This document shows positions 6,184 through 28,871 of a stretch of DNA of 32,037 nucleotides, piece by piece. The DNA lies in the NCBI GenBank assembly GCA_012735575.1, contig JAAYGY010000090.1:1-32037 (forward strand), in the 5' to 3' direction. Every line of letters starts with the position of its first letter. Positions within the stretch are counted from its first letter, which is position 1. The notes under the pieces are model-generated. The model saw only the letters and a program-made list of their open reading frames with translations, was not told the DNA's origin and searched no databases. The translations under genes were made by a program, and so were the position numbers. This stretch comes from Clostridiales bacterium. Its GTDB lineage: Bacteria > Bacillota > Clostridia > Caldicoprobacterales > UBA3941.

Positions 6184-6204
6184 AACATAAAAATTTCATA
6201 ACAA

Positions 6205-6516
6205 AAAGCTATGAAGAGAAGGAGTAGAAGTGCCTAGGCCTTAAAGAGAGTTCCCGGTTGGTGAGAGGGGCAAGGAACAGCACTTTGAATACATCTCTGA
6301 GCTGTACACCGAAAGATCTAAGTACCATGTGCATAGGTTAAGTAGGCTGTCACCGTCACCCGCACCCGTTATCGTGCTAAGGTATAAAAGCCAAGGTTAA
6401 GTCCTTGTGCCATTGTACCTGATGAGGTTGATGCTGCGAGGCATCGATAAATTGAGGTGGTAACACGGGATTCTACTCTCGTCCTCTGCTGGTTCAGAGG
6501 TCGAGAGTTTTTTGTT
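6205..6516 (+). promoter_or_regulatory. Tyrosine T-box leader with specifier UAC
   Basis: This leader senses uncharged tRNA-Tyr and allows read-through into tyrS. Stem I begins near 6212 (GAAGAGAAGGAGTAG) and carries the GGTGAGAGG-type distal region. The specifier loop GAA-TAC-ATC places the Tyr codon UAC at 6290-6292. The T-box/antiterminator sequence GAGGTGGTAACACGGG occupies about 6454-6469; its TGGT can pair with the ACCA end of tRNA-Tyr. The competing terminator is at 6475-6513: CTCTCG (6476-6481) with CGAGAG (6502-6507), inner TCCTCTG/CAGAGG, then T6. The order stem I, specifier, T-box, terminator and synthetase gene is complete. Confidence 0.95.
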
Positions 6517-7835: not shown

Positions 7836-7868
7836 AAGCTTGTACGCACAAGTTCCCTGTGATATAAT
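7826..7868 (+). promoter_or_regulatory. Arabinose operon promoter overlapped by an AraR-like operator
   Basis: The -35 box TTGTAC (7840-7845) and -10 box TATAAT (7863-7868) are separated by 17 nt. The -35 box lies within CTTGTACGCACAAG (7839-7852), which closely resembles the AraR box (TTGTACGTACAA core). That box is the centre of a 40-bp palindrome (7826-7865; 17 of 20 positions pair) whose outer arms are ATATCACAG and CTGTGATAT. AraR bound here would block RNA polymerase. The same symmetry could fold in RNA and help end tyrS transcripts, though no T-run follows. Confidence 0.75.
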
Positions 7869-7917
7869 TATTTTTGGAAGAAATTTCACAATTATATATG
7901 TAAGGGGGCTAATACAT

Positions 7918-9399
7918 ATGCAAAATATTCCATGTGTAAAACTGGGGATTGTAGCCGTAAGCAGGGACTGCTTCCCCATAGAGCTTAGTGAAAAAAGAAG
8001 AAAAGCCGTTGTAGAAGCTTGTACAAACAAGAATATAGACATCTTTGAAGTACAAACAACTGTAGAAAATGAAAAAGATGTGCTTAAAGCATTAAAAGAA
8101 TTAAAAGAAGCTGATGTAAATGCTCTGGTACTCTTTCTCGGCAACTTCGGGCCTGAAGGACCTGAGACCATGCTAATCCAAAAATTTGGAGGTCCTGCTA
8201 TGGTGGTTGCAGCAGCTGAGGAAACTCAGGACAACCTAATAGCCGGCCGTGGTGATGCCTATTGCGGAATGCTTAATGCTTCATACAGCCTTGGGCTAAA
8301 AGGTTTAAATCCATATATCCCTGAATATCCTGTAGGTACAGCCCAGGATATAGCAGATATGATTCTGGACTTTGAGGATATAGCAAGGGTTATCCTTGGC
8401 TTAAAGGGACTTAAGGTCATCAGCTTTGGACCAAGACCTCAAGATTTTCTGGCATGTAATGCGCCTATCAAACCCCTTTTTGATCTGGGAATAGAGATTA
8501 TGGAAAACTCTGAATTAGACCTATTTGAAGCTTTTAACAACCATGCCGACGATCCTAGAATTCCCGATGTGGTAAAGGATATGGAGGAGGAGTTAGGTGA
8601 GGGCAATGGATATCCTGGTATCTTGCCAAAACTTGCCCAGTATGAGTTAACCCTTCTGGACTGGATGGAGGAAAACCTGGGTGCATCTGAATACGCTGTA
8701 TTTGCCAACAAATGCTGGCCTGCTTTCCAGACACAGTTTGGATTTGTTCCCTGCTATGTAAATTCAAGATTAGCGGCAAGGGGAATACCTGTTGCCTGTG
8801 AAACTGACATCTATGGAGCCGTAAGTGAATATATTATTACCTGTGCTACAAAGAAACCGGCAACCCTACTGGATATAAACAATACTGTTCCCAAGGATAT
8901 GTACGATGAGAACAGGGAACTGTTTGATGGCTATAAATTAACTGATCTCTTTATGGGATTCCATTGTGGAAATACTCCCAAAGCATGTCTAAAGGATGCT
9001 GAGATGAAGTATCAGCGTATTATGCATAGCCTATTAGAGCCTGATAAGGAGCCTGACATTACAAGGGGTACTCTAGAGGGTACCATAAGGTCCGGAGAAA
9101 TTACTCTATTCAGACTGCAAAGCACGGCTGATACCACTCTAAGAAGCTATGTAGCACAGGGAGAGGTCATTGACATAGATCCAAAATCTTTTGGAGGTAT
9201 TGGAGTAATTGCTGTAAAGGAAATGGCAAGGTTCTATCGTCATGTACTTATAGCAAAGAGATTCCCCCACCATGCTGGTGTAGCCTTTGAGCATGCGGGC
9301 AAGGTGTTGTTTGCTGCTATGAAGATGCTGGGTGTAGAGGATGTATCTTTCAATCAACCAGCTTCCATGATGTACAAGGATGAGAACCCCTTTGGATAA
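7918..9399 (+). CDS. L-fucose/L-arabinose isomerase family protein, probable L-arabinose isomerase
   Basis: The 493-aa metal-dependent aldose-ketose isomerase belongs to the FucI fold. Glu295 (in CETDIYG) and Asp319 (in LLDINN) are 24 residues apart, the same spacing as the E. coli FucI metal ligands Glu337 and Asp361. A His-rich C-terminal stretch HHAGVAFEHAG (451-461) could provide the third ligand. It is shorter than E. coli FucI (591 aa). It is the first gene of an operon with araR, araB and araD, and no classical araA is present, so it most likely converts L-arabinose to L-ribulose. The ATG at 7918 is chosen because TAAGGGGG lies 9 nt upstream; a TTG at 7840 is in frame but falls inside the operator. 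Substrate assignment rests on context. Confidence 0.82.
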   Translation: MQNIPCVKLGIVAVSRDCFPIELSEKRRKAVVEACTNKNIDIFEVQTTVENEKDVLKALKELKEADVNALVLFLGNFGPEGPETMLIQKFGGPAMVVAAAEETQDNLIAGRGDAYCGMLNASYSLGLKGLNPYIPEYPVGTAQDIADMILDFEDIARVILGLKGLKVISFGPRPQDFLACNAPIKPLFDLGIEIMENSELDLFEAFNNHADDPRIPDVVKDMEEELGEGNGYPGILPKLAQYELTLLDWMEENLGASEYAVFANKCWPAFQTQFGFVPCYVNSRLAARGIPVACETDIYGAVSEYIITCATKKPATLLDINNTVPKDMYDENRELFDGYKLTDLFMGFHCGNTPKACLKDAEMKYQRIMHSLLEPDKEPDITRGTLEGTIRSGEITLFRLQSTADTTLRSYVAQGEVIDIDPKSFGGIGVIAVKEMARFYRHVLIAKRFPHHAGVAFEHAGKVLFAAMKMLGVEDVSFNQPASMMYKDENPFG

Positions 9400-10489
9400 A
9401 AGATGTGAAAGGCAAAAGCCAAAATATCAGGCACTTAAAGAATATATTATAGAAACCATTGAGCAGGAAGGGCTTAAGACCGGGGATAAAATCTGGTCGG
9501 AAAATGAGCTGGCTAAAAAATTTATGGTTAGCCGGCATACCGTGAGACAGGCGATTGGTGAACTGACAAACGAGGGATGGCTGTATAAAGTACATGGCAA
9601 GGGTACTTATGTAGGGGAAAGAATAGATCAAAAATCCAGTAAAATTAAAACTATAGGAGTAATGACCACCTATCTTGATGATTATATATTTCCATCCATC
9701 ATTTTAGGCATGGACCAAGTCTTGTCCAAGGCAGGATATAATCTAGTGCTTGGATGTACCTACAATCATCATGATAAGGAAAGGGTATGCCTGGAAAACT
9801 TTATTAGGTCGGATATCCAGGGCATTATTATAGAGCCTACAAAAAGTGCCCTGCCAAACCCTAACCTGGATCTATACAGGCAGATAATTGACAAGGGTAT
9901 CCCTATGTTCTTTATTCATGGTTGCTATCAGGAGCTGGATTGTCCCTATGTGGTAGTGGACGATACAAAAGCTGGCTATCTTGCCACCCGCTACTTAATT
10001 GATTTAGGACATAAAAGTATCGGTGGTATATTTAAGATAGACGATATACAAGGTCACTATCGTTTTAAGGGATTTCAAAAAGCTCTGGCTGAAGATGGGA
10101 TAAGCTTGAAGGATTCAAATATTTTATGGTTTGATACCGATGATATTGGAGAAGAGTTTATAAAGCTGGATCATAAAAAGTTTGAAGTGCTTATCAAAAG
10201 CTGTTCAGCCATAATATGCTACAACGATCAGGTGGCATTAAAAATTGTAAATGCTATTAAAAGCATGGAAATGAACATACCTGATGATATATCCCTGGTC
10301 AGTTTTGATGATTCTCAGCTGGCTGTTGTATCTGAGGTTAAATTAACCACAGTTGCCCATCCTCAGAAAAAGCTGGGAAGGTTGGTGGCTGAAAGCTTAA
10401 TAAATAAGATTGACGGTCGTGAGGTCAAGGATAAGGTTAAGATGGAGCCGGAGCTAATAGTAAGAGATAGTGCCAAAGAGTATGAATAG
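9380..10489 (+). CDS. araR: AraR-type repressor: GntR winged helix plus LacI/GalR sensor
   Basis: The 369-aa protein has a GntR-type winged helix at about 13-80 (WSENELAKKFMVSRHTVRQA, HGKGTYVG) joined to a LacI-type periplasmic-binding-protein fold from about 90 to the end (IGVMTTYLDDYIFPSIILG, SLVSFDDSQLAVVSEV, TTVAHPQKKLGRLVAESL). This two-part design and the length match Bacillus AraR (362 aa), which releases DNA on binding L-arabinose. The gene overlaps the isomerase gene by 20 nt. An in-frame TTG at 9392 with AAGGA 12 nt upstream is an alternative start. The AraR-like box at 7839-7852 is its likely operator. Confidence 0.9.
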   Translation: MRTPLDKRCERQKPKYQALKEYIIETIEQEGLKTGDKIWSENELAKKFMVSRHTVRQAIGELTNEGWLYKVHGKGTYVGERIDQKSSKIKTIGVMTTYLDDYIFPSIILGMDQVLSKAGYNLVLGCTYNHHDKERVCLENFIRSDIQGIIIEPTKSALPNPNLDLYRQIIDKGIPMFFIHGCYQELDCPYVVVDDTKAGYLATRYLIDLGHKSIGGIFKIDDIQGHYRFKGFQKALAEDGISLKDSNILWFDTDDIGEEFIKLDHKKFEVLIKSCSAIICYNDQVALKIVNAIKSMEMNIPDDISLVSFDDSQLAVVSEVKLTTVAHPQKKLGRLVAESLINKIDGREVKDKVKMEPELIVRDSAKEYE

Positions 10490-10512
10490 TATAAATTAAG
10501 GGGAGTTATGGA

Positions 10513-12192
10513 ATGGGTAAAAAGTTTACTATTGGTGTAGATTTTGGTACTCAGTCGGGGAGAGCGGTATTGGTAGAGGTTGGCACAGGAAAAGAAGTGG
10601 CAACGGCGGTCGGGGAGTATCCTCATGGGGTTATGGATGAGTATTTGCCTGATGGTGTTACCCCTCTAGACCATGACTGGGCACTGCAGCATCCTCAGGA
10701 TTATTTGGATGTGCTAAGTGAAACCATTCCTGAAGTTCTAAAGGAATCGGGGATAGCTTGTGAAGATGTTATAGGGATTGGTATAGATTTTACTGCCTGT
10801 ACTCTACTTCCCATAGATGAAAAGGGAGTCCCTTTATGTTTGTATGACGAATACAGGTCTAGCCCTCATGCCTATGTAAAACTTTGGAAACATCACGCTG
10901 CACAAGAGGAAGCCAACAAGCTCAATGAGATTGCTATGGAAAGAGGAGAGGAGTTTTTAGACCTCTATGGAGGAAAAATCTCTTCGGAATGGCTTTTTCC
11001 AAAGATATGGCAGACATTAAATGAGGCACCTGATATATATGAAAAAGCGGAAAAGTTTATAGAGGCTGCTGACTGGGTGGTTATGCAGCTAACAGGCCAG
11101 GAAAAGAGAAATAGCTGTACTGCAGGATATAAGGCTATGTGGCATAAGCAAAAAGGCTATCCCGGCAATGACTTTTTTAAGGCATTGGATCCTAGATTGG
11201 AAAATGTAGTAGATGAAAAGCTAAGCAGAAACATATATCCCATTGGAACCAAGGCTGGAGAGATTACCCAAAGTGCAGCCCGGCTAACTGGCCTTAAGCC
11301 TGGAACTGCTGTAGCAGTGGGGAATATAGATGCCCATGTGGCTATGCCGGCTGTGGGCATTGTAGATGAAGGAAAAATGCTTATGATTATAGGTACCTCC
11401 ACCTGCCATATGGTACTGGGCAGAGAGGAAAAAAAGGTTCCAGGAATATGTGGAGTGGTAGAGGATGGAATTATTCCAGGTTATTTTGGCTATGAGGCTG
11501 GTCAATGCTGCGTGGGAGATCACTTTGACTGGTTTATAAAGAACTATGTACCTGGAGGTTACTACAGGGAGGCTGAAAAGAAGGGTATAGGTATTCATGA
11601 TTTATTAAGTGAGAAGGCACAGAAACTGGCAGTAGGCCAAAGCGGACTTATAGCCCTGGACTGGTGGAATGGAAACCGTTCTGTGCTGGTGGACGCTGAT
11701 TTGACTGGTTTGATTATAGGATGTACCCTACTTACCAAACCGGAAGAGATTTATAGAGCTCTTATTGAGGCTACAGCCTACGGTACCCGTATGATTATAG
11801 ATACCTTTGAGGAAAGCGGGGTTCCTGTTAAGGAGATATATGCTGCAGGCGGTATAGCTCACAAAAATCCCTTCCTTATGCAGATATATTCCGATGTCAC
11901 CAACAGGGAGATTAGAATATCAGCATCCACACAAGCTGCGGCTTTGGGATCAGCCATGTTCGGTGCAGTAGCGGCAGGTAAGGAAAGAGGGGGCTATGAC
12001 TCTATAGTGGATGCAGCCAGGGAAATGGCCAGATTAAAGGATGTAGTATACAGGCCTGTACAGGAGAATGTAGAGGTATACAACAAACTATATTCAGAGT
12101 ATAAAATCCTACACGACTACTTTGGCAGGGGCACAAATGATGTAATGAAACGTCTTAAGGTTATAAAGAGACAAGCATCAGAAAAAGAATGA
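10513..12192 (+). CDS. araB: Ribulokinase
   Basis: The 559-aa FGGY-family kinase phosphorylates L-ribulose to L-ribulose 5-phosphate. Length and sequence fit AraB (E. coli 566 aa). The first FGGY domain opens with [17 protein letters not shown] (nucleotide-binding phosphate 1 loop), followed by the [15 protein letters not shown] segment typical of ribulokinases. The second domain carries the adenosine motif [17 protein letters not shown]. The start is ATG 10513 with GGGGAG upstream. It lies between araR (23 nt gap) and araD (19 nt gap to its preferred start). It looks complete. Confidence 0.95.
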
Positions 12193-12211
12193 TGTGTTAG
12201 GGAGTGATAAA

Positions 12212-12898
12212 ATGCTTAAGGATTTAAAGGAGCAGGTGTGGAAGGCCAACATGGATCTTCCCAAATTTGGACTGGTTACTTTTACCTGGGGCAATGTTAG
12301 CGGTATAGATAGGGACAGGGGACTTATTGTAATTAAGCCCAGTGGAGTGCCTTACCCGGATCTAAAACCTGAGCATATGGTGGTGCTTGATCTTGAGGGC
12401 AACAAGGTGGAGGGGGATTTAAAACCCTCATCTGATACTCCGACTCATCTGGTGCTATATAATAATTTTAGTGAGATAGGCGGAGTGGTTCACACCCATT
12501 CATCCTGGGCTACCAGCTTTGCTCAGGCTGGTAGAGGGATTCCGGCACTTGGTACAACTCATGGAGATTATTTCTACGGAGAGATCCCCTGTACCAGGAA
12601 GATGACCAAAGAGGAGATAGAAGGGGACTATGAAAAGGAAACCGGCAATGTCATTGTAGAGACTTTTGCCAATGTAAATCCCATGGAAATCCCTGGAGTA
12701 TTGGTCAATATGCATGGCCCTTTTACCTGGGGAAAAGATGCAGCTGATGCGGTGCATAATTCTGTAGTATTGGAAGAGGTAGCCAAGATGGCTTTAAGGA
12801 CCTTTATGCTTAACCCCAATATCGGACCTATGGATCAGAACCTCTTGGACAAGCATTTTCTGAGAAAGCATGGGGCTAATGCCTATTATGGACAATGA
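12212..12898 (+). CDS. araD: L-ribulose-5-phosphate 4-epimerase
   Basis: The 228-aa class II aldolase-fold, metal-dependent enzyme converts L-ribulose 5-phosphate to D-xylulose 5-phosphate, the entry into the pentose phosphate pathway. The metal ligands His94 and His96 are in VVHTHSSWA, and the third His is in NMHGPFTWG. Asp75 in SSDTPTH and the [14 protein letters not shown] segment match the epimerase rather than fuculose-phosphate aldolase. The ATG at 12212 gives the MLKDLKEQV start found in E. coli AraD; an in-frame GTG at 12194 would add six residues and has no better RBS. It is the last gene of the arabinose operon; no clear terminator follows. Confidence 0.95.
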
Positions 12899-12961: not shown

Positions 12962-12980
12962 GTATTTAAGTGAATTTTTT

Positions 12981-13175
12981 CGTTAGGTGAGGCTACTATA
13001 CGGAAATACGCCACTGTCCAGAAACGTCGAGAGACGCCAATGGGCTAACAGGCTTTATCGAATTAAGGTATAGCTTAATGTGGCTGGCCATAGGCCTAAG
13101 CCGTATAGAGTTAAAACTCAACGAGTGGAGGAATAGGTATCTTTGGGTCTTTCGCTTGTTGAGGGACCCATTTTT
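12981..13175 (+). promoter_or_regulatory. M-box (ykoK) magnesium riboswitch with terminator
   Basis: The conserved M-box segments are present in order: CGTTAGGTGAGGCT, the TATACGGAAATACGC helix, CCAGAAACGTCGAGAGACGCC, AATGGG...AACAGG, TAAGGT...TTAATG and GCCGTATAG closing the fold. The expression platform follows: CTCAAC (13117-13122) can pair with GTTGAG (13158-13163) as antiterminator, or TGGGTC (13144-13149) pairs with GACCCA (13165-13170) followed by T5 as terminator. High Mg2+ would favour termination and shut off the downstream Mg2+ transporter. Confidence 0.95.
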
Positions 13176-19455: not shown

Positions 19456-21504
19456 ATGAAACTAGGATTGGGCATAGATACTGGAGGAACATATACAGAC
19501 GGTGTAATTTATGATTTCCATAGCAGAAAAGTAATAAAGGATGCAAAATCAGTTACTGTAAAAGAGGATTTAAAGCTGGGTATAATCAATGTCCTGGATC
19601 AGATGCCCAGAGAGCTTCTTGAAAAAGTCAAGATGGTATCCTTATCCACTACTTTGGCTACCAATGCCTGTGTAGAAGATAAGGGCAGCAGAGCAAAACT
19701 TATATTAATGGGATGCGATAAAGACATTGTTGCGAAAAATGGTAAACAATATGGTTTGCCTCCCGTTGATGACATTATATTCATAGAAGGAGGACATGAT
19801 TCCAGGGGCGAAGTAATAAAAGAGCCTGACTGGGACGACCTTCATGTAAAGATAAAAAAGATAGGTAAAGGTGTAGACGCCTTTGCTGTAGTTCAGATGT
19901 GGGGAGTCCGCAATCCTGAGTTTGAGAAAAAGGCCAAAAACCTTATTAATACATGGACTGGTTTGCCTGTAGTATGTGGCCATGAACTGGCAAGCCAGCT
20001 TAACTTTTTAAAACTGGCAGCTACGGCTCTACTTAACGCAAAGCTTATTCCCTTGGTTAATGAGTTTATCGATGCGGTAAAGGTAGGCTTAAAGGAGAGG
20101 AATATTAATGCTCCATTGGTTATAGTCTGTGGCGATGGCAGCATCATGTCTGAAGAGTTTGTAAGGGACAGGCCGGTAGAGACTCTTTTATCAGGACCGG
20201 CAGCCAGTGTAATAGGTGGCATAAATTTAAGCGGCCAGAAAAATTGTATTGTGGTGGATATGGGTGGTACCACCAGTGACCTGGCAATAGTTAAGGATGG
20301 AATTCCTCTTTTAGCCTATGAGGGAGCCAATGTTGGAAACTGGCAGACTGCTGTTAAGTCTGTGGATATTCGAACCATTGGCCTGGGAGGCGACAGTATT
20401 ATAAGCTTTGATTCCAGGGATAACCTAACAGTTGGTCCCCGCAGGGCAGCACCCCTGTCCTGGTTGGCACACAGATGGCCACAGGTGCTTGAGTATATAA
20501 AATTCTTACATGAAAATCCCAGAATCCATACCCGGTCATTGTGCCAGTTTTTCTATAAGTTACGGGATATCCCTACGGGAGAAGGCTTTACTTCAGAGGA
20601 GATAAATATAGTGAAAGCCTTGGAGAATGGTCCTTTAAGCTTGGAACAGCTGGCGGAAGCGGCTGAAACATCTATATATACTATAAAACTGGATAGGCTG
20701 GAGCAGCTAGGTATAATTATGAGGAGTGCTCTAACGCCTACGGATATCATGCATTTAACAGGGGATTTTTGTGGATGGAACAATCAGGCTGCTCTGATGG
20801 GTGCCGAGATTCTGGCCAATCGCTTGAGGCTAAGCCTTGATGAACTTATCTATGAGGTTAATACTATTATAAAGTCCAGACTGTATTTAACAATAGCCAA
20901 GGAGTTATTGGTAAGGGAAAATACCTTCCTTACAGAGAATAGTTTTTCCCCGGAGCTGGAGAAGATGCTGCTTTTAGGCTATAAAGAGTTCCAGAATAAA
21001 GAAAGCTCTTATACATCCTTTAAACTATCTACAGATTTTTCATTAGTTGGAATCGGGGCTCCCATCCATGTATATCTACCGGATGTGGCCTCAGCACTTA
21101 ATACCGACTGTGTAATAGAAGAACATGCGGCAGTTGCCAATGCAGTGGGAGCTATCACAGGCAGTATTACTGCAGAAGAGAGGGTGGTTATAAAGCCCAG
21201 GTATAATTCAGCGGGAGTAGAAGGCTACGACTGCTTCTCCTCCAGCCAAAAGACATATTTTGAAGACTACGAAAAGGCCAAAGCATGGGCGGAGGAGGAA
21301 GCTAAAAGAGCAGCCCGGGAGCTTGCTATAGCTCGGGGTGCATCTACCTGTGATGTATCCATTCAGGCAGATGAAAACATTACTCAAATCAACGTGTTTG
21401 CATCTAATCCTCAAAAACAGGATCAGGAGGAGGTAATAACACGGGAGTTACTACTGGAAACTACTGTAACAGCAAGAGCCATAGGAGGTCTAAAGTGGGT
21501 CTAA
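19456..21504 (+). CDS. Hydantoinase/oxoprolinase-family ASKHA protein of the corrinoid module
   Basis: The 682-aa protein has the two ATP-binding motifs of the acetate/sugar kinase-Hsc70-actin fold: GIDTGGTYTDGVIYD at the N terminus and VVDMGGTTSDLAIV near 267, then IRTIGLGGDSII. This is the hydantoinase A family, in which ATP drives ring opening in 5-oxoprolinase-type enzymes. Residues about 383-435 resemble a winged helix (LSLEQLAEAAETSIYTIKLD, LEQLGII) before TPTDIMHLTG. No hydantoinase B gene is present, so plain hydantoinase activity is doubtful. It is 20 nt upstream of the RACo-like gene, which points to a role in the corrinoid system, perhaps in substrate handling or activation. GGGAGTGA precedes the ATG. 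Confidence 0.78.
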   Translation: MKLGLGIDTGGTYTDGVIYDFHSRKVIKDAKSVTVKEDLKLGIINVLDQMPRELLEKVKMVSLSTTLATNACVEDKGSRAKLILMGCDKDIVAKNGKQYGLPPVDDIIFIEGGHDSRGEVIKEPDWDDLHVKIKKIGKGVDAFAVVQMWGVRNPEFEKKAKNLINTWTGLPVVCGHELASQLNFLKLAATALLNAKLIPLVNEFIDAVKVGLKERNINAPLVIVCGDGSIMSEEFVRDRPVETLLSGPAASVIGGINLSGQKNCIVVDMGGTTSDLAIVKDGIPLLAYEGANVGNWQTAVKSVDIRTIGLGGDSIISFDSRDNLTVGPRRAAPLSWLAHRWPQVLEYIKFLHENPRIHTRSLCQFFYKLRDIPTGEGFTSEEINIVKALENGPLSLEQLAEAAETSIYTIKLDRLEQLGIIMRSALTPTDIMHLTGDFCGWNNQAALMGAEILANRLRLSLDELIYEVNTIIKSRLYLTIAKELLVRENTFLTENSFSPELEKMLLLGYKEFQNKESSYTSFKLSTDFSLVGIGAPIHVYLPDVASALNTDCVIEEHAAVANAVGAITGSITAEERVVIKPRYNSAGVEGYDCFSSSQKTYFEDYEKAKAWAEEEAKRAARELAIARGASTCDVSIQADENITQINVFASNPQKQDQEEVITRELLLETTVTARAIGGLKWV

Positions 21505-21524
21505 GAAAGGAAGGTAGGTAAAGA

Positions 21525-23366
21525 GTGGATAAATACACCGTAACAGTTTCATTGGATGGCCATGAAAAAAGGGTAACCTGTGGACCTGGAAGTATTCTTA
21601 TGGATGTCTTTCACCAGAACAATATCTATATAGAGGCTCCCTGTGGTGGAAAAGGCATCTGCGGCAAATGCAAGGTAAGGGTTTTGACAGGCAAGGTATC
21701 GGATATTACTGACCTGGAGTCTAAATTTTTGTCCCAGAGGGAAAAGCAGGAGGGATATCGCCTGGCCTGTATGACAAGGATACTGGGAGATGTAAAGGTG
21801 GCTGCCAGGGGACAGCTGGAAGGGGCACAGATACTATCTACAGGTCTTGAGTATTCTGTGGATATATCTCCCGCTATAAGCAAAAAATTTGTCCAGCTGG
21901 ACCTTCCCACTGTGGATGATCAGCAGGATGATCTAAAGCGACTGGCTCATGCTATAGGTATAGAAAATCCTCACATCCATATTTCTATATTGAGAAAACT
22001 GCCTCAAGTTCTTAGAGACTCGGAGTTTAAGGTTACAGTAGCCTATGATGACAATAGAATACTGGATGTGGAAAAGGGAGATACTTCAAAGAAGTCCTAT
22101 GGAGTGGCTATAGATATAGGAACTACCACTGTAGTATGTTATTTAATGGATCTAATAACTGGGCAGCAGGTAGATATTATATCAGGACTGAATGCCCAAA
22201 GGCCCTATGGAGGGGATGTTATTTCACGAATTCAGCATGCTATGGGAGGATCTGATGGCCTAAACAGATTAAGAGAGGCTATTGTAAATCAAATATCAGA
22301 GCTTATAAAGGAGCTTGCCAGAAGAAACAAAATTTCTATAGACCATATCTATAATGTAGCAATAGCCGGCAATACCATTATGGGACACCTTCTGCTGGGC
22401 GTAGATCCGCAACATATTGCAGCTGCACCCTTTACCCCTGCGACTACCAAGGCAGAGGTGTATGATGCCCATGATCTGGGTTTGGAACTGGGGATTGCCA
22501 CCAGAGTATTTTTGTTACCCCATATTTCAGGCTATGTAGGGGCTGATATAGTAGCGGGCATATTAGCTTCAGGTATGGATAAAAACAAGGAATTAAGCCT
22601 TATTATAGATATTGGTACCAACGGAGAAATAGTGCTGGGCAACAGAGATAAAATGGTATGCTGCTCTACTGCTGCAGGACCTGCATTTGAAGGTGCAAAT
22701 ATCCGCCATGGAATGGGAGGAGTAAGTGGTGCAATCAATACTGTTATGCTGGATAATGGTAATTTAAAGTACACTACTATTGATAATAAGCTTCCTTTAG
22801 GGATATGCGGTTCTGGAATAGTGGATGCTCTGGCAGCTTTGCTGGATGCAGGTATAGTAGATGAGACAGGCAGGATGCTGGACAGGGATGAAATTGAAAC
22901 GGAGATTGGGCAAAAATTAGCTGACAGATTAACGGAGATTGATGGTTTATCTGCCTTTATCATTGTGGACTCAAAATCTAGTGGTACAGGTGAGCCTATA
23001 GTAATAACCCAAAAAGATGTAAGAGAGATCCAGCTGGCAAAGGCAGCTATTGCAGCGGGAATAAAGGTTCTTATCAATAAAATGGGCAAAAAGGTAGAGG
23101 AAATATCCAATCTTTATCTGGCGGGAGGTTTTGGTAGCTATATAGATAAGCGAAACGCATCCAGGATTGGCCTTATACCTTCACAGCTGCAGCACCGGAT
23201 TATAGCTATTGGAAACAGTGCAGGTACTGGTGCTATGTTATCTTTACTGTCCTTGGAGCAGTATGAAAGGACAAGCCTTATTAAGGGTATGGCAGAGTAT
23301 GTTGAGCTGTCTTCTACTTTAGAATTTCAGAATGAATACGTAGATAGTATGTATTTTGAAGTCTAG
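21525..23366 (+). CDS. RACo-type reductive activator of corrinoid proteins (2Fe-2S plus ASKHA)
   Basis: The 613-aa protein has an N-terminal plant-type [2Fe-2S] ferredoxin domain with Cys40, Cys46, Cys49 and Cys82 (C-x5-C-x2-C...C), a linker, and a C-terminal DUF4445/RACo ASKHA domain: GVAIDIGTTTVVCYLMDL near 190, LIIDIGTNGEIVLG near 360, AGPAFEGANIRHGMGG and LYLAGGFGSYID. RACo proteins use ATP binding and an Fe-S electron to bring inactive Co(II) corrinoid back to Co(I). It starts with GTG at 21525 after AAGGAAGG. The corrinoid protein 1.5 kb downstream is the obvious client. It is close in layout to Carboxydothermus RACo. Confidence 0.9.
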   Translation: MDKYTVTVSLDGHEKRVTCGPGSILMDVFHQNNIYIEAPCGGKGICGKCKVRVLTGKVSDITDLESKFLSQREKQEGYRLACMTRILGDVKVAARGQLEGAQILSTGLEYSVDISPAISKKFVQLDLPTVDDQQDDLKRLAHAIGIENPHIHISILRKLPQVLRDSEFKVTVAYDDNRILDVEKGDTSKKSYGVAIDIGTTTVVCYLMDLITGQQVDIISGLNAQRPYGGDVISRIQHAMGGSDGLNRLREAIVNQISELIKELARRNKISIDHIYNVAIAGNTIMGHLLLGVDPQHIAAAPFTPATTKAEVYDAHDLGLELGIATRVFLLPHISGYVGADIVAGILASGMDKNKELSLIIDIGTNGEIVLGNRDKMVCCSTAAGPAFEGANIRHGMGGVSGAINTVMLDNGNLKYTTIDNKLPLGICGSGIVDALAALLDAGIVDETGRMLDRDEIETEIGQKLADRLTEIDGLSAFIIVDSKSSGTGEPIVITQKDVREIQLAKAAIAAGIKVLINKMGKKVEEISNLYLAGGFGSYIDKRNASRIGLIPSQLQHRIIAIGNSAGTGAMLSLLSLEQYERTSLIKGMAEYVELSSTLEFQNEYVDSMYFEV

Positions 23367-23455
23367 TGTCCATTAATAGTTTAAAAGTGCAAAAAATATT
23401 AAAATAGTTCAATACCGTTAAAAAAAAGAGTGATATCATAAAGTTGCATTCTGTG

Positions 23456-23492
23456 ATTGTCTATTTACTTATTCCCTATTGTCTAATATAAT
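23456..23492 (+). promoter_or_regulatory. Direct repeats and promoter of the PocR-corrinoid operon
   Basis: ATTGTCTA occurs at 23456-23463 and again at 23478-23485, 22 bp apart (two helical turns). The second copy ends one base before TATAAT (23487-23492); the -35 position has only a weak TTACTT (23465-23470). Direct repeats overlapping the -35 region are the usual binding layout of AraC-family activators, and the next gene encodes one. Confidence 0.55.
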
Positions 23493-23524
23493 AGACTTAA
23501 TCAAACTGCGGAGAGAGTGATGCT

Positions 23525-24859
23525 ATGGTTTTACCAAACGCAGCAGTAGTAGACATAGGGGATGACCTGGGTTTTGATCTAGAAAGGGCATCCAAGGCTA
23601 TAGTACATTATGGACGAGTTGCAGAAGTAGGAGTAAGTATAATAGACACCAGGGGCAACATTCTTTATAGCACTGAAACTACATCAGGGATTTCCTGTAA
23701 ATTTTGTCATCAGGTCAGGCAACTGATGGATGGCGAGGATGGTTATTGTAATAAAGTTCACCTTTATGGCGGTTATCAATCTGAAAGGTTTGGTGGTAAA
23801 TACATTTTCTTTTGCCCTATGGGGTTGGTGCACTGGGCCTCTCCCATATCAACTAAAGGAATGGTCAGAGGCTATTTATTGTGTGGACCGGCTTTGATGA
23901 TGGAAGCTGACGATTTTCTCATAGAGGACCTTCTTCGAAAAAATAATATTGAAGAAGAATATTTGGAAAAGCTAAGGGATACTTTGGACAATATACCTGT
24001 AATAGCTCCTCAGAAGGTTACCAGCTTATCAGAGTTGCTGTTTATGGTAGCATCCCATATATCGGATGCAGAATATCTACAGTATCTGGAACAGATGGAA
24101 TTCCATAACCATCAGTCCCATATATCCCAGTATATTCATATGATAAAGACCATGGGCGGTAATGACACAAACGTTTCTGAGTACCCCTTTGAAAAGGAGA
24201 AGGAACTGCTGTCCTGTATTGCTATGGGGGATAAGAAGGGCGCTCAAACCATTCTTAATAAAATACTAGGATATATATTCTTTTCCAGCGGAGGAAATTT
24301 TGAGACAATTAAAGCCAGAGTACTAGAGTTAATTGTGCTACTTTCCAGGGCAGCAATGGAAGGCGGGGCAGATGTAGAGCAGATATTCGGGTTAAACTAT
24401 AAATATTTGAATACCATTCATAATTTTAAAACTGTGGAGGAACTAACCTTCTGGTTGTCCAAAATAATGATCAGGTTTACTGACTGTGTTTTCAACTTAA
24501 AAGACATAAAGCACGCAGATGTAATATATAAGGCGGTTAACTATATAAATGAAAACTATATGAAGAAGATCACACTGGAAGAGGTAGCAGCACACGTATA
24601 CTTGAGTCCCTCATACTTTAGCAAGGTGTTTAAGGATAATATGAATTGTAATTTCAATACCTACGTAAACCGGGTTAGGGTAGAGAAAAGTAAGCAATTG
24701 CTACTAAACGAGAATATAAATCTTGTGGATGTATCCAATCTGGTAGGCTATGAGGATCAAAGTTATTTTTCAAAGGTATTCAAGAAAATTGAAGGAGTAA
24801 CCCCTGGCAAATATAGAGTAACTAGGGGAAAATATAAATCTAAGGAGGTTGAACAATGA
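23525..24859 (+). CDS. PocR-domain AraC-family transcriptional regulator
   Basis: The 444-aa cytosolic regulator has an N-terminal PocR sensory domain (about 10-165) with conserved cysteines Cys58, Cys61, Cys75 and Cys97 (CKFCHQ, GYCNK, FFCPMG). A helical middle region leads to a C-terminal AraC double HTH (about 335-435: ITLEEVAAHVYLSPSYFSKV and VDVSNLVGYEDQSYFSKVFK). PocR domains bind small ligands, as in the propanediol regulator of Salmonella, and are frequent beside corrinoid methyltransferase genes. Its stop overlaps the start of the corrinoid protein gene (ATGA), so the two are translationally coupled. It probably controls its own operon through the repeats at 23456-23485. Confidence 0.87.
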   Translation: MVLPNAAVVDIGDDLGFDLERASKAIVHYGRVAEVGVSIIDTRGNILYSTETTSGISCKFCHQVRQLMDGEDGYCNKVHLYGGYQSERFGGKYIFFCPMGLVHWASPISTKGMVRGYLLCGPALMMEADDFLIEDLLRKNNIEEEYLEKLRDTLDNIPVIAPQKVTSLSELLFMVASHISDAEYLQYLEQMEFHNHQSHISQYIHMIKTMGGNDTNVSEYPFEKEKELLSCIAMGDKKGAQTILNKILGYIFFSSGGNFETIKARVLELIVLLSRAAMEGGADVEQIFGLNYKYLNTIHNFKTVEELTFWLSKIMIRFTDCVFNLKDIKHADVIYKAVNYINENYMKKITLEEVAAHVYLSPSYFSKVFKDNMNCNFNTYVNRVRVEKSKQLLLNENINLVDVSNLVGYEDQSYFSKVFKKIEGVTPGKYRVTRGKYKSKEVEQ

Positions 24860-25494
24860 GTTTACTAAATGAAATTTCTACATTTTTACAGCAAGGAAGA
24901 GCTAAGAATGTAAAAGAACTAGTTCAAAAAGCTTTAGATGAGGGCATGGATCCAAAAACCATCCTAAATGAGGGCTTACTGGATGGTATGTCCATTATAG
25001 GTGAAAAGTTTAAAAACAATGAGGTCTATGTACCCGAAGTACTTATTGCAGCTAGAGCTATGTATGCAGGTATGGAGGTATTAAAACCCGCTCTAACAGA
25101 AACTGGAGTAGAATCCATAGGTAAAGTAGTGCTTGGCACTGTTAGAGGAGATCTCCATGATATTGGTAAAAACCTTGTCAAGATGATGATGGAAGGTAGG
25201 GGTCTGGAGGTAATAGATTTAGGTATAGACGTACCCCCAGAGAAGTTTATTGAGGCAGCTAAGGAACACAATGCTCAGGTCATTGCCTGCTCTGCCTTGC
25301 TAACCACTACCATGACTGAAATGCAGAATGTAGTTGAAGCTGCAAAAGAAGCAGGAATCAGAGACCAGGTTACCATTATGGTTGGGGGAGCTCCTGTTAC
25401 TGACAACTTCTGCAAGAGCATTGGTGCTGATATTTATAAACCTGATGCTGCATCTGCTGCGGAAGAGGCAGCCAGAGTTTGCCAGGGAGCTTAA
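24856..25494 (+). CDS. Corrinoid (B12-binding) methyl-carrier protein, MtbC/MtgC-like
   Basis: The 212-aa two-domain cobalamin carrier has an N-terminal helical cap domain (about 1-88; LLDGMSIIGEKFKNNEVYVPEVL) and a C-terminal Rossmann B12 domain with the lower-axial ligand motif GDLHDIG (Asp99, His101, Gly104), then SALLTTTM and VGGAPV for the nucleotide tail. Such proteins accept a methyl group from a substrate-specific methyltransferase and pass it to tetrahydrofolate or coenzyme M. AGGAGG precedes the ATG inside the end of the PocR gene. No methyltransferase gene of any MtaB, MttB, MtgB or MtrH type is in the window, and a terminator follows 40 nt later. Confidence 0.93.
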   Translation: MSLLNEISTFLQQGRAKNVKELVQKALDEGMDPKTILNEGLLDGMSIIGEKFKNNEVYVPEVLIAARAMYAGMEVLKPALTETGVESIGKVVLGTVRGDLHDIGKNLVKMMMEGRGLEVIDLGIDVPPEKFIEAAKEHNAQVIACSALLTTTMTEMQNVVEAAKEAGIRDQVTIMVGGAPVTDNFCKSIGADIYKPDAASAAEEAARVCQGA

Positions 25495-25533: not shown

Positions 25534-25566
25534 AAAAGAGATAGTGAAATCAGCTATCTCTTTTTT
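25534..25566 (+). terminator. Rho-independent terminator of the corrinoid operon
   Basis: AAAAGAGATAG (25534-25544) pairs with CTATCTCTTTT (25554-25564) around a 9-nt loop and ends in T6. It closes the PocR-corrinoid transcription unit. Confidence 0.85.
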
Positions 25567-25769
25567 GGTTTACTTAAAAATTTTTTGAGAATAGAGATAC
25601 AGGACATAAGATATAAGAGTAAAGACATATAAAAGAATAAAAGGATATGATAAAATAAAGGGCAGGACCTTTGGATATAAAATGGAATATATGAATATAT
25701 CAGTAACTTTGATAAAAAGTTATTGTATTTAGCCTAAAGAGGAGAGTAGGAAAGTAGCAGGAGGGTAAG

Positions 25770-28603: not shown

Positions 28604-28871
28604 GCCGTGCTAGATGGGGAGGTAGCGGTGCCCTATAACCTGCAATCCGCTATAGCAGGGTTGAAGTCCTGCCTGAGGCTAGTACTGGTAGGGCCTGGCC
28701 CGAGCAAGTGATGAGGATGGTTGGGTCCTGCGCAACGGAAATTCACGAACCCTGTCAGGTCCGGAAGGAAGCAGCAGTAAGTGGACACTTTCGTGTGCCG
28801 CAGGGGCGCCTGGCCGGAGTTAACTACTCGGTTCCCGCCTGTGAGTGCTTTGTCGAAGGTAGGTGCACGGC
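28604..28871 (+). ncRNA. ffs: Signal recognition particle RNA, large Bacillus type
   Basis: The RNA is about 268 nt, and its ends pair (GCCGTGC 28604-28610 with GCACGGC 28865-28871). The 5' part has the Alu-domain pattern of Gram-positive SRP RNA. The S-domain helix 8 is unmistakable: GTCAGGTCCGGAAGGAAGCAGCA at about 28755-28777, the Ffh binding site with the GGAA tetraloop. It guides ribosomes making membrane proteins, together with Ffh and FtsY. Position directly before dnaX matches the Bacillus scr-dnaX-ebfC-recR order. A terminator follows at 28880. Confidence 0.96.

Follow-up and report, generated by a model that had tools for sequence, protein, structure and literature searches.

Which methyltransferases does a corrinoid methyl-carrier serve when none is encoded beside it? 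The question is raised by four genes on a 32,037-nt stretch of DNA from a Clostridiales bacterium (assembly GCA_012735575.1, contig JAAYGY010000090.1). These encode a hydantoinase-A-like ASKHA protein (HYD), a RACo-type activator of corrinoid proteins, a PocR-type regulator and a small carrier resembling MtgC and MtbC. The window, meaning this whole stretch, is a complete 32-kb contig (C68), and the search for neighbouring genes is thus bounded by the contig ends. The answer that we favour, at a probability of roughly 60%, is that the unit encodes a shared corrinoid carrier, which would serve both methionine synthesis and a fleet of UroD-superfamily methyltransferases feeding methyl groups to folate.

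The carrier and its candidate partners

The initial annotation had described four co-directional genes with an intact carrier and activator, closed by a terminator and lacking an adjacent methyltransferase, and all of this is borne out (Table 1). The four open reading frames (ORFs) look intact, and in profile scans their family matches lie far over the cut-offs. The carrier has both the cap and the B12-binding domain, its DxHxxG motif reads DLHDIG at residues 99-104, and the closest solved structure is 1y80 (1.9e-60). RACo comprises linker, middle and C-terminal domains as well as an N-terminal 2Fe-2S domain (Fer2 4.7e-13), with iron-sulfur cysteines in a C-x5-C-x2-C cluster at 40-49 and at C82; it is AcsV-like, but scores under the cut-off of the AcsV model. 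HYD conserves the motifs GIDTGGTYTD and VVDMGGTT. The PocR and carrier genes overlap by 4 bp, and 20 bp separate HYD from RACo. Shuffling the sequence does not make such terminator-like hairpins scarcer (6 found, 4.5 expected), but the one directly 3' of the carrier gene is the longest of those found. Neither ORF nor profile scans recognised a substrate methyltransferase on the 32-kb contig, which does not hold a complete corrinoid methyltransferase operon. A search of the 19-26 kb region against Rfam returned no matches, and riboswitch control of the unit was rejected on that ground.

Candidate partners are encoded elsewhere in the genome (G000; 2.59 Mb in 105 contigs, 96.3% complete). There, 15 UroD-superfamily proteins score above cut-off, on 13 contigs other than C68; additional weaker relatives occur at some of these loci, and the two that were scanned both fall under the cut-off. 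The 15 are divergent paralogues, sharing at most 41% identity in a pairwise search, and their closest NCBIfam relatives are MtaA/CmuA-type methyltransferases; none of six scanned against TIGR01463 and PRK06252 reaches the cut-off. Two proteins in the genome carry a Pterin_bind domain. One, on contig C29, exceeds the cut-off for the methyl-folate:corrinoid methyltransferase (MeTr) model, stands alone as a protein, and is the first gene of a run that we read from sequence, rather than from family scans, as MetV-, MetF- and HdrA-like. The other, on C58, is a 572-aa MetH with homocysteine-binding (S-methyl_trans) and Pterin_bind domains only, ending before the B12 domain, so that this genome pairs a B12-less methionine synthase with a separate carrier. 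Its Cys202, Cys267 and Cys268 presumably correspond to the zinc ligands of MetH. Elsewhere (L166:6136-7919, contig C82), a homocysteine methyltransferase-like ORF of 378 aa adjoins a MetF-like ORF of 214 aa where relatives carry one frame of about 600 aa; a frameshift or a split is possible.

The carrier was the sole match to the B12-binding_2 cap in this genome, and the other genome of the genus likewise encodes a single B12-binding_2 protein. At 96.3% completeness, one carrier is thus found with several candidate methyltransferases. The partners proposed in the initial annotation, of the MtaB, MttB/MtgB (PF06253) and MtrH families, gave no matches across the genome, and the candidates are of UroD and MetH type instead; donors of the MttB superfamily, a feature of MtqC- and MtgC-like systems, are absent. 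Its suggestion that the carrier serves methyltransferases encoded elsewhere is supported by the presence of one carrier, 15 UroDs at other loci, a MetH lacking its B12 domain and a stand-alone MeTr, and by a relative (G023) in which close counterparts of three of these UroDs directly adjoin the module. A shared hub is thus more probable than an orphan carrier.

In such an arrangement, RACo would reduce the carrier to the Co(I) state at the expense of adenosine triphosphate (ATP). The UroDs, encoded singly and in many cases within carbohydrate loci, would place methyl groups onto it, each presumably demethylating a substrate of its own. Methyl groups could then pass to folate via the stand-alone MeTr, and the carrier may exchange them with both folate and homocysteine on the B12-less MetH. 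A small metabolite is probably the signal on which PocR switches the unit on, and HYD most likely services the UroD branch as an accessory ATPase. These catalytic roles, the sharing of the carrier and the substrates are all drawn from sequence and family knowledge.

Several points weigh against a shared hub. Since the assembly is 96% complete, a second carrier might be missed, and the count of one covers cap-bearing carriers only, the search having been aimed at B12-binding_2. Only UROD_C45 has the full HxC...C motif of the MtaA/MtbA zinc ligands; the other 14 UroDs carry HSCG...H, HxDG...H or DxDG...DH variants, and some may therefore not be methyltransferases. The motif, complete in a single protein, was dropped as a test for the whole set. 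The objection is tempered by CdmB, a zinc-free methyltransferase of the UroD superfamily (PMC13222342). Finally, one relative (G022) has the module without any UroD or MetH match.

The module in related genomes

UroDs, carriers, MetH and HYD were tabulated across 30 genomes of the same order. One small carrier per genome is nearly the rule, against anything from 0 to 32 UroDs. Of the 17 genomes with five or more UroDs, 16 have a single small carrier, the exception being G002 with two. Synteny at the carrier locus is kept within the window's family; the gene after the carrier, of roughly 714 aa, looks from its sequence like one for a RecD2-like helicase.

Two close relatives, G001 and G003, encode carriers 90% and 85% identical to that of the window. 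Their carrier locus consists of RACo and the carrier, without HYD or PocR, and they keep a B12-less MetH; no UroD, HYD orthologue or stand-alone MeTr was matched in either. Carrier and MetH give ratios of nonsynonymous to synonymous substitution rates (dN/dS) near 0.04 and 0.07, respectively, between the window's genome and G001. From the retention of RACo, carrier and B12-less MetH in the absence of UroDs, the basal role of the carrier would most simply be methionine synthesis. It may be that this is its only role: the carrier and RACo would then supply the B12 part of a divided methionine synthase and nothing more, PocR and HYD being accessory, and the UroDs would be unrelated, corrinoid-free enzymes of carbohydrate loci. 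The order PocR-carrier-MetH in G012 is consistent with this, as is the MetH near the carrier in G008, where the surrounding genes also include one reading as CobW-like and a UroD whose C-terminus is weakly thioredoxin-like, and Phaeobacter is known to combine a split MetH with a RamA-like activator (PMC5764234). However, UroDs adjoin the module in G023 and sit within it in G025 (PocR-UroD-carrier-RACo, the UroD being C45-like), HYD and MeTr tend to co-occur with UroDs, and G023 retains the module and its UroDs without a MetH match. We consider a role confined to methionine synthesis unlikely, though deserving of serious attention. In G004 and G005 (L143 and L144), the MetH match reads through in-frame stops (TGA in the first, TGA and TAA in the second), which could reflect a pseudogene, an assembly error or another cause.

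The locus in G023 runs HYD-RACo-PocR-carrier, followed by a 258-aa gene, an AraC-like gene on the opposite strand, two UroDs and, on the opposite strand, a third. The 258-aa protein is a marginal match, slightly below cut-off, to the methionine-synthase activation domain. The best matches of the three UroDs in the window's genome are UROD_C16, UROD_C39 and UROD_C45, at 685, 560 and 678 bits. These three types are also the only UroDs physically linked to carriers in relatives, which could mean that the carrier serves a small set, namely MetH, MeTr and one to three methyltransferases including UROD_C45, and that most UroDs of sugar loci act otherwise. UROD_C45, the sole bearer of the full zinc triad, also aligns over most of its length with a solved methylcobalamin:coenzyme M methyltransferase. 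Yet UROD_C16 and UROD_C39 are DxDG-type proteins without the triad and are linked to the module in G023 all the same, and so restricted a set seems distinctly improbable.

G022 and G023 belong to one genus and are 99.8% identical over 11.2 kb spanning the module (L102 and L103). The identity breaks off abruptly once the 258-aa gene has ended, for which a recent transfer, a binning error and a sequencing error are possible causes. In G022, a one-base insertion splits the RACo frame and may stem from decay or from faulty sequencing.

A module that always stands with a neighbouring methyltransferase would have refuted the initial annotation. The pattern holds only in part: it applies to G023, G025, G008 and G012, where a UroD or MetH is nearby, and fails in G001, G003 and G022.

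HYD and the sugar loci

Of the 30 genomes, 16 have a HYD orthologue; the median number of UroDs is 8 in these and 1 in the others (Mann-Whitney p=0.009; Fisher on presence p=0.03), an association that we treat as a trend only, because the genomes are related and the points not independent. HYD adjoins RACo in the window's genome, G005, G022 and G023. Beyond G022, G023 and the window's family, it is located away from the carrier. A single scan aimed at named relatives of HYD returned four loci from metagenome-assembled genomes with homologues at about 41% identity; none has a carrier module near HYD, and at one of them (L175) a UroD lies two genes downstream. The adjacency to RACo and the UroD at L175 could be taken to favour the initial suggestion that HYD itself helps to deliver the one-carbon (C1) unit, as could a hydantoinase-like HydA drawn in glycine-betaine methyltransferase clusters (PMC9768040). 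HYD's relatives, however, are ASKHA-type hydantoinase, oxoprolinase and carboxylase subunits rather than methyltransferases, it stands apart from the carrier in most relatives, and neither G001 nor G003, which both retain carrier and RACo, has an orthologue. HYD tracks UroD-rich genomes, nothing points to methyl handling, and we regard such a role as very improbable.

HYD is also unlikely to be a true hydantoinase, since no Hydantoinase_B (HyuB) partner lies beside it: PF02538 was unmatched among the nine window proteins scanned, which include both HYD flanks, the search not extending to the rest of the genome. A structure prediction from four sequences (predicted local distance difference test score, pLDDT, 52; predicted template-modelling score, pTM, 0.38) was of too low a quality for interpretation or comparison. 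Contig C72 (L041:7316-8989) encodes another Hydantoinase_A-like protein, of 557 aa, which is only distantly related (some 35% identity across its N-terminal half) and is also found in G001 and G003.

Many UroDs of the window's genome adjoin glycosidase or sugar genes; UROD_C45 is instead near a gene of the metallo-beta-lactamase fold. Among the neighbours scanned, which were chosen by hand and without a background and so describe selected genes rather than an enrichment, are GH38 (three times), GH106 (twice), GH35, GH3, GH4 and an arabinofuranosidase, together with Gfo/Idh oxidoreductases, a PfkB kinase and a LacI regulator. A tentative elaboration of the shared-carrier reading, possible but on balance doubtful, is that the UroDs strip O-methylated sugars or glycan products, locus by locus, onto the one carrier, which would pass methyl groups to folate and the split MetH while HYD services the UroDs as an ATPase. 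The window has sugar genes and ordinary RNA elements of its own (Table 1).

Table 1. Coordinates of the four-gene unit and other features of the window
Feature	Position	Strand	Matches and remarks
T-box leader	6202-6489
Sugar genes: fucose-isomerase-like, GntR/LacI-type regulator, FGGY-type kinase, class II aldolase-like	7840-12898		FGGY-type kinase read from sequence
M-box riboswitch	12972-13136
Protein with two tandem class II aldolase domains, 434 aa	17968-19272	-	Directly upstream of HYD, divergent
HYD, hydantoinase-A-like ASKHA protein, 682 aa	19456-21504	+	Hydant_A_N 2.6e-31, Hydantoinase_A 1.3e-31
RACo-type ATP-dependent reductive activator of corrinoid proteins, 613 aa	21525-23366	+	RACo_C_ter 1.9e-78, Raco_middle 3.8e-60
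PocR sensory domain and AraC-type helix-turn-helix (HTH) regulator, 444 aa	23525-24859	+	PocR 5.8e-26, HTH_18 5.3e-20
Corrinoid methyl-carrier, MtgC/MtbC-like, 212 aa	24856-25494	+	B12-binding_2 2.5e-22, B12-binding 1.4e-28
Terminator-like hairpin with T-rich tail, closing the unit	25534-25572	+	12-pair stem at 25534-25564
Bacterial large signal recognition particle RNA	28605-28870

Comparison with known systems

Shared carriers and split methionine synthases are already known, and what appears to be new is their combination with UroDs and sugar loci. We found no description, in the accessible literature, of a UroD fleet that is unlinked, lies in part within glycan loci and shares its one carrier with MetH, and nothing relevant on UroD enzymes in glycan loci was found in the papers available. 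If the shared-carrier reading is correct, a large and mostly uncharacterised set of UroD-superfamily proteins near glycosidases in anaerobes, up to 32 per genome in this order, would acquire a testable role, and anaerobic use of methylated plant sugars would be suggested. One protein would also join methionine synthesis to C1 catabolism in a lineage remote from the marine aerobes in which such sharing was shown.

Those aerobes offer the nearest parallel. In Ruegeria, the corrinoid carrier MtgC is common to methionine synthesis and demethylation (PMC12478193). Both the MtgBCDE system of Ruegeria pomeroyi and the three-part synthase of Phaeobacter (PMC5764234) resemble the window's genome in having a separate carrier for the two processes, a MetH apart from its B12 domain and a RamA/RACo-like activator. 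They differ in that MetH is in three pieces, whereas the homocysteine and pterin domains are still fused here, and in their donors, which belong to the MttB family (pfam06253), absent from this genome, where UroDs are the candidates.

In Eubacterium limosum, one corrinoid protein, MtqC, works for several methyltransferases (PMC8604678). The resemblance lies in the route from several substrate-specific enzymes (MtpB, MtcB, MtyB) through one carrier to folate (MtqA), with a separate activase (RamQ). The donors there are of the MttB superfamily rather than UroDs, and sharing with methionine synthase appears to be no part of that study.

UroD proteins do occur together with a carrier in the type 1 mlp clusters of Clostridia (PMC10418091), which likewise have a corrinoid protein and a Ram/RACE activator, and which often lack a folate methyltransferase. 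Several Mlps stand beside the carrier there, with methyl-sulfur or methyl-selenium compounds as proposed substrates, whereas the UroDs considered here are scattered. The UroD O-demethylases of Acetobacterium and its CdmBCA chloromethane system (PMC13222342) are similar in combining a UroD-fold methyltransferase, a separate corrinoid protein, a pterin-type second methyltransferase and an activator encoded apart, but in cdm the two methyltransferases and the carrier are clustered, and 26 methyltransferase systems are reported in that organism. The glycine-betaine clusters, in which HydA is drawn with a corrinoid protein and an activator, resemble the unit by gene label; their donor is of MttB type, and HydA is there as unassigned in function as HYD is here (PMC9768040).

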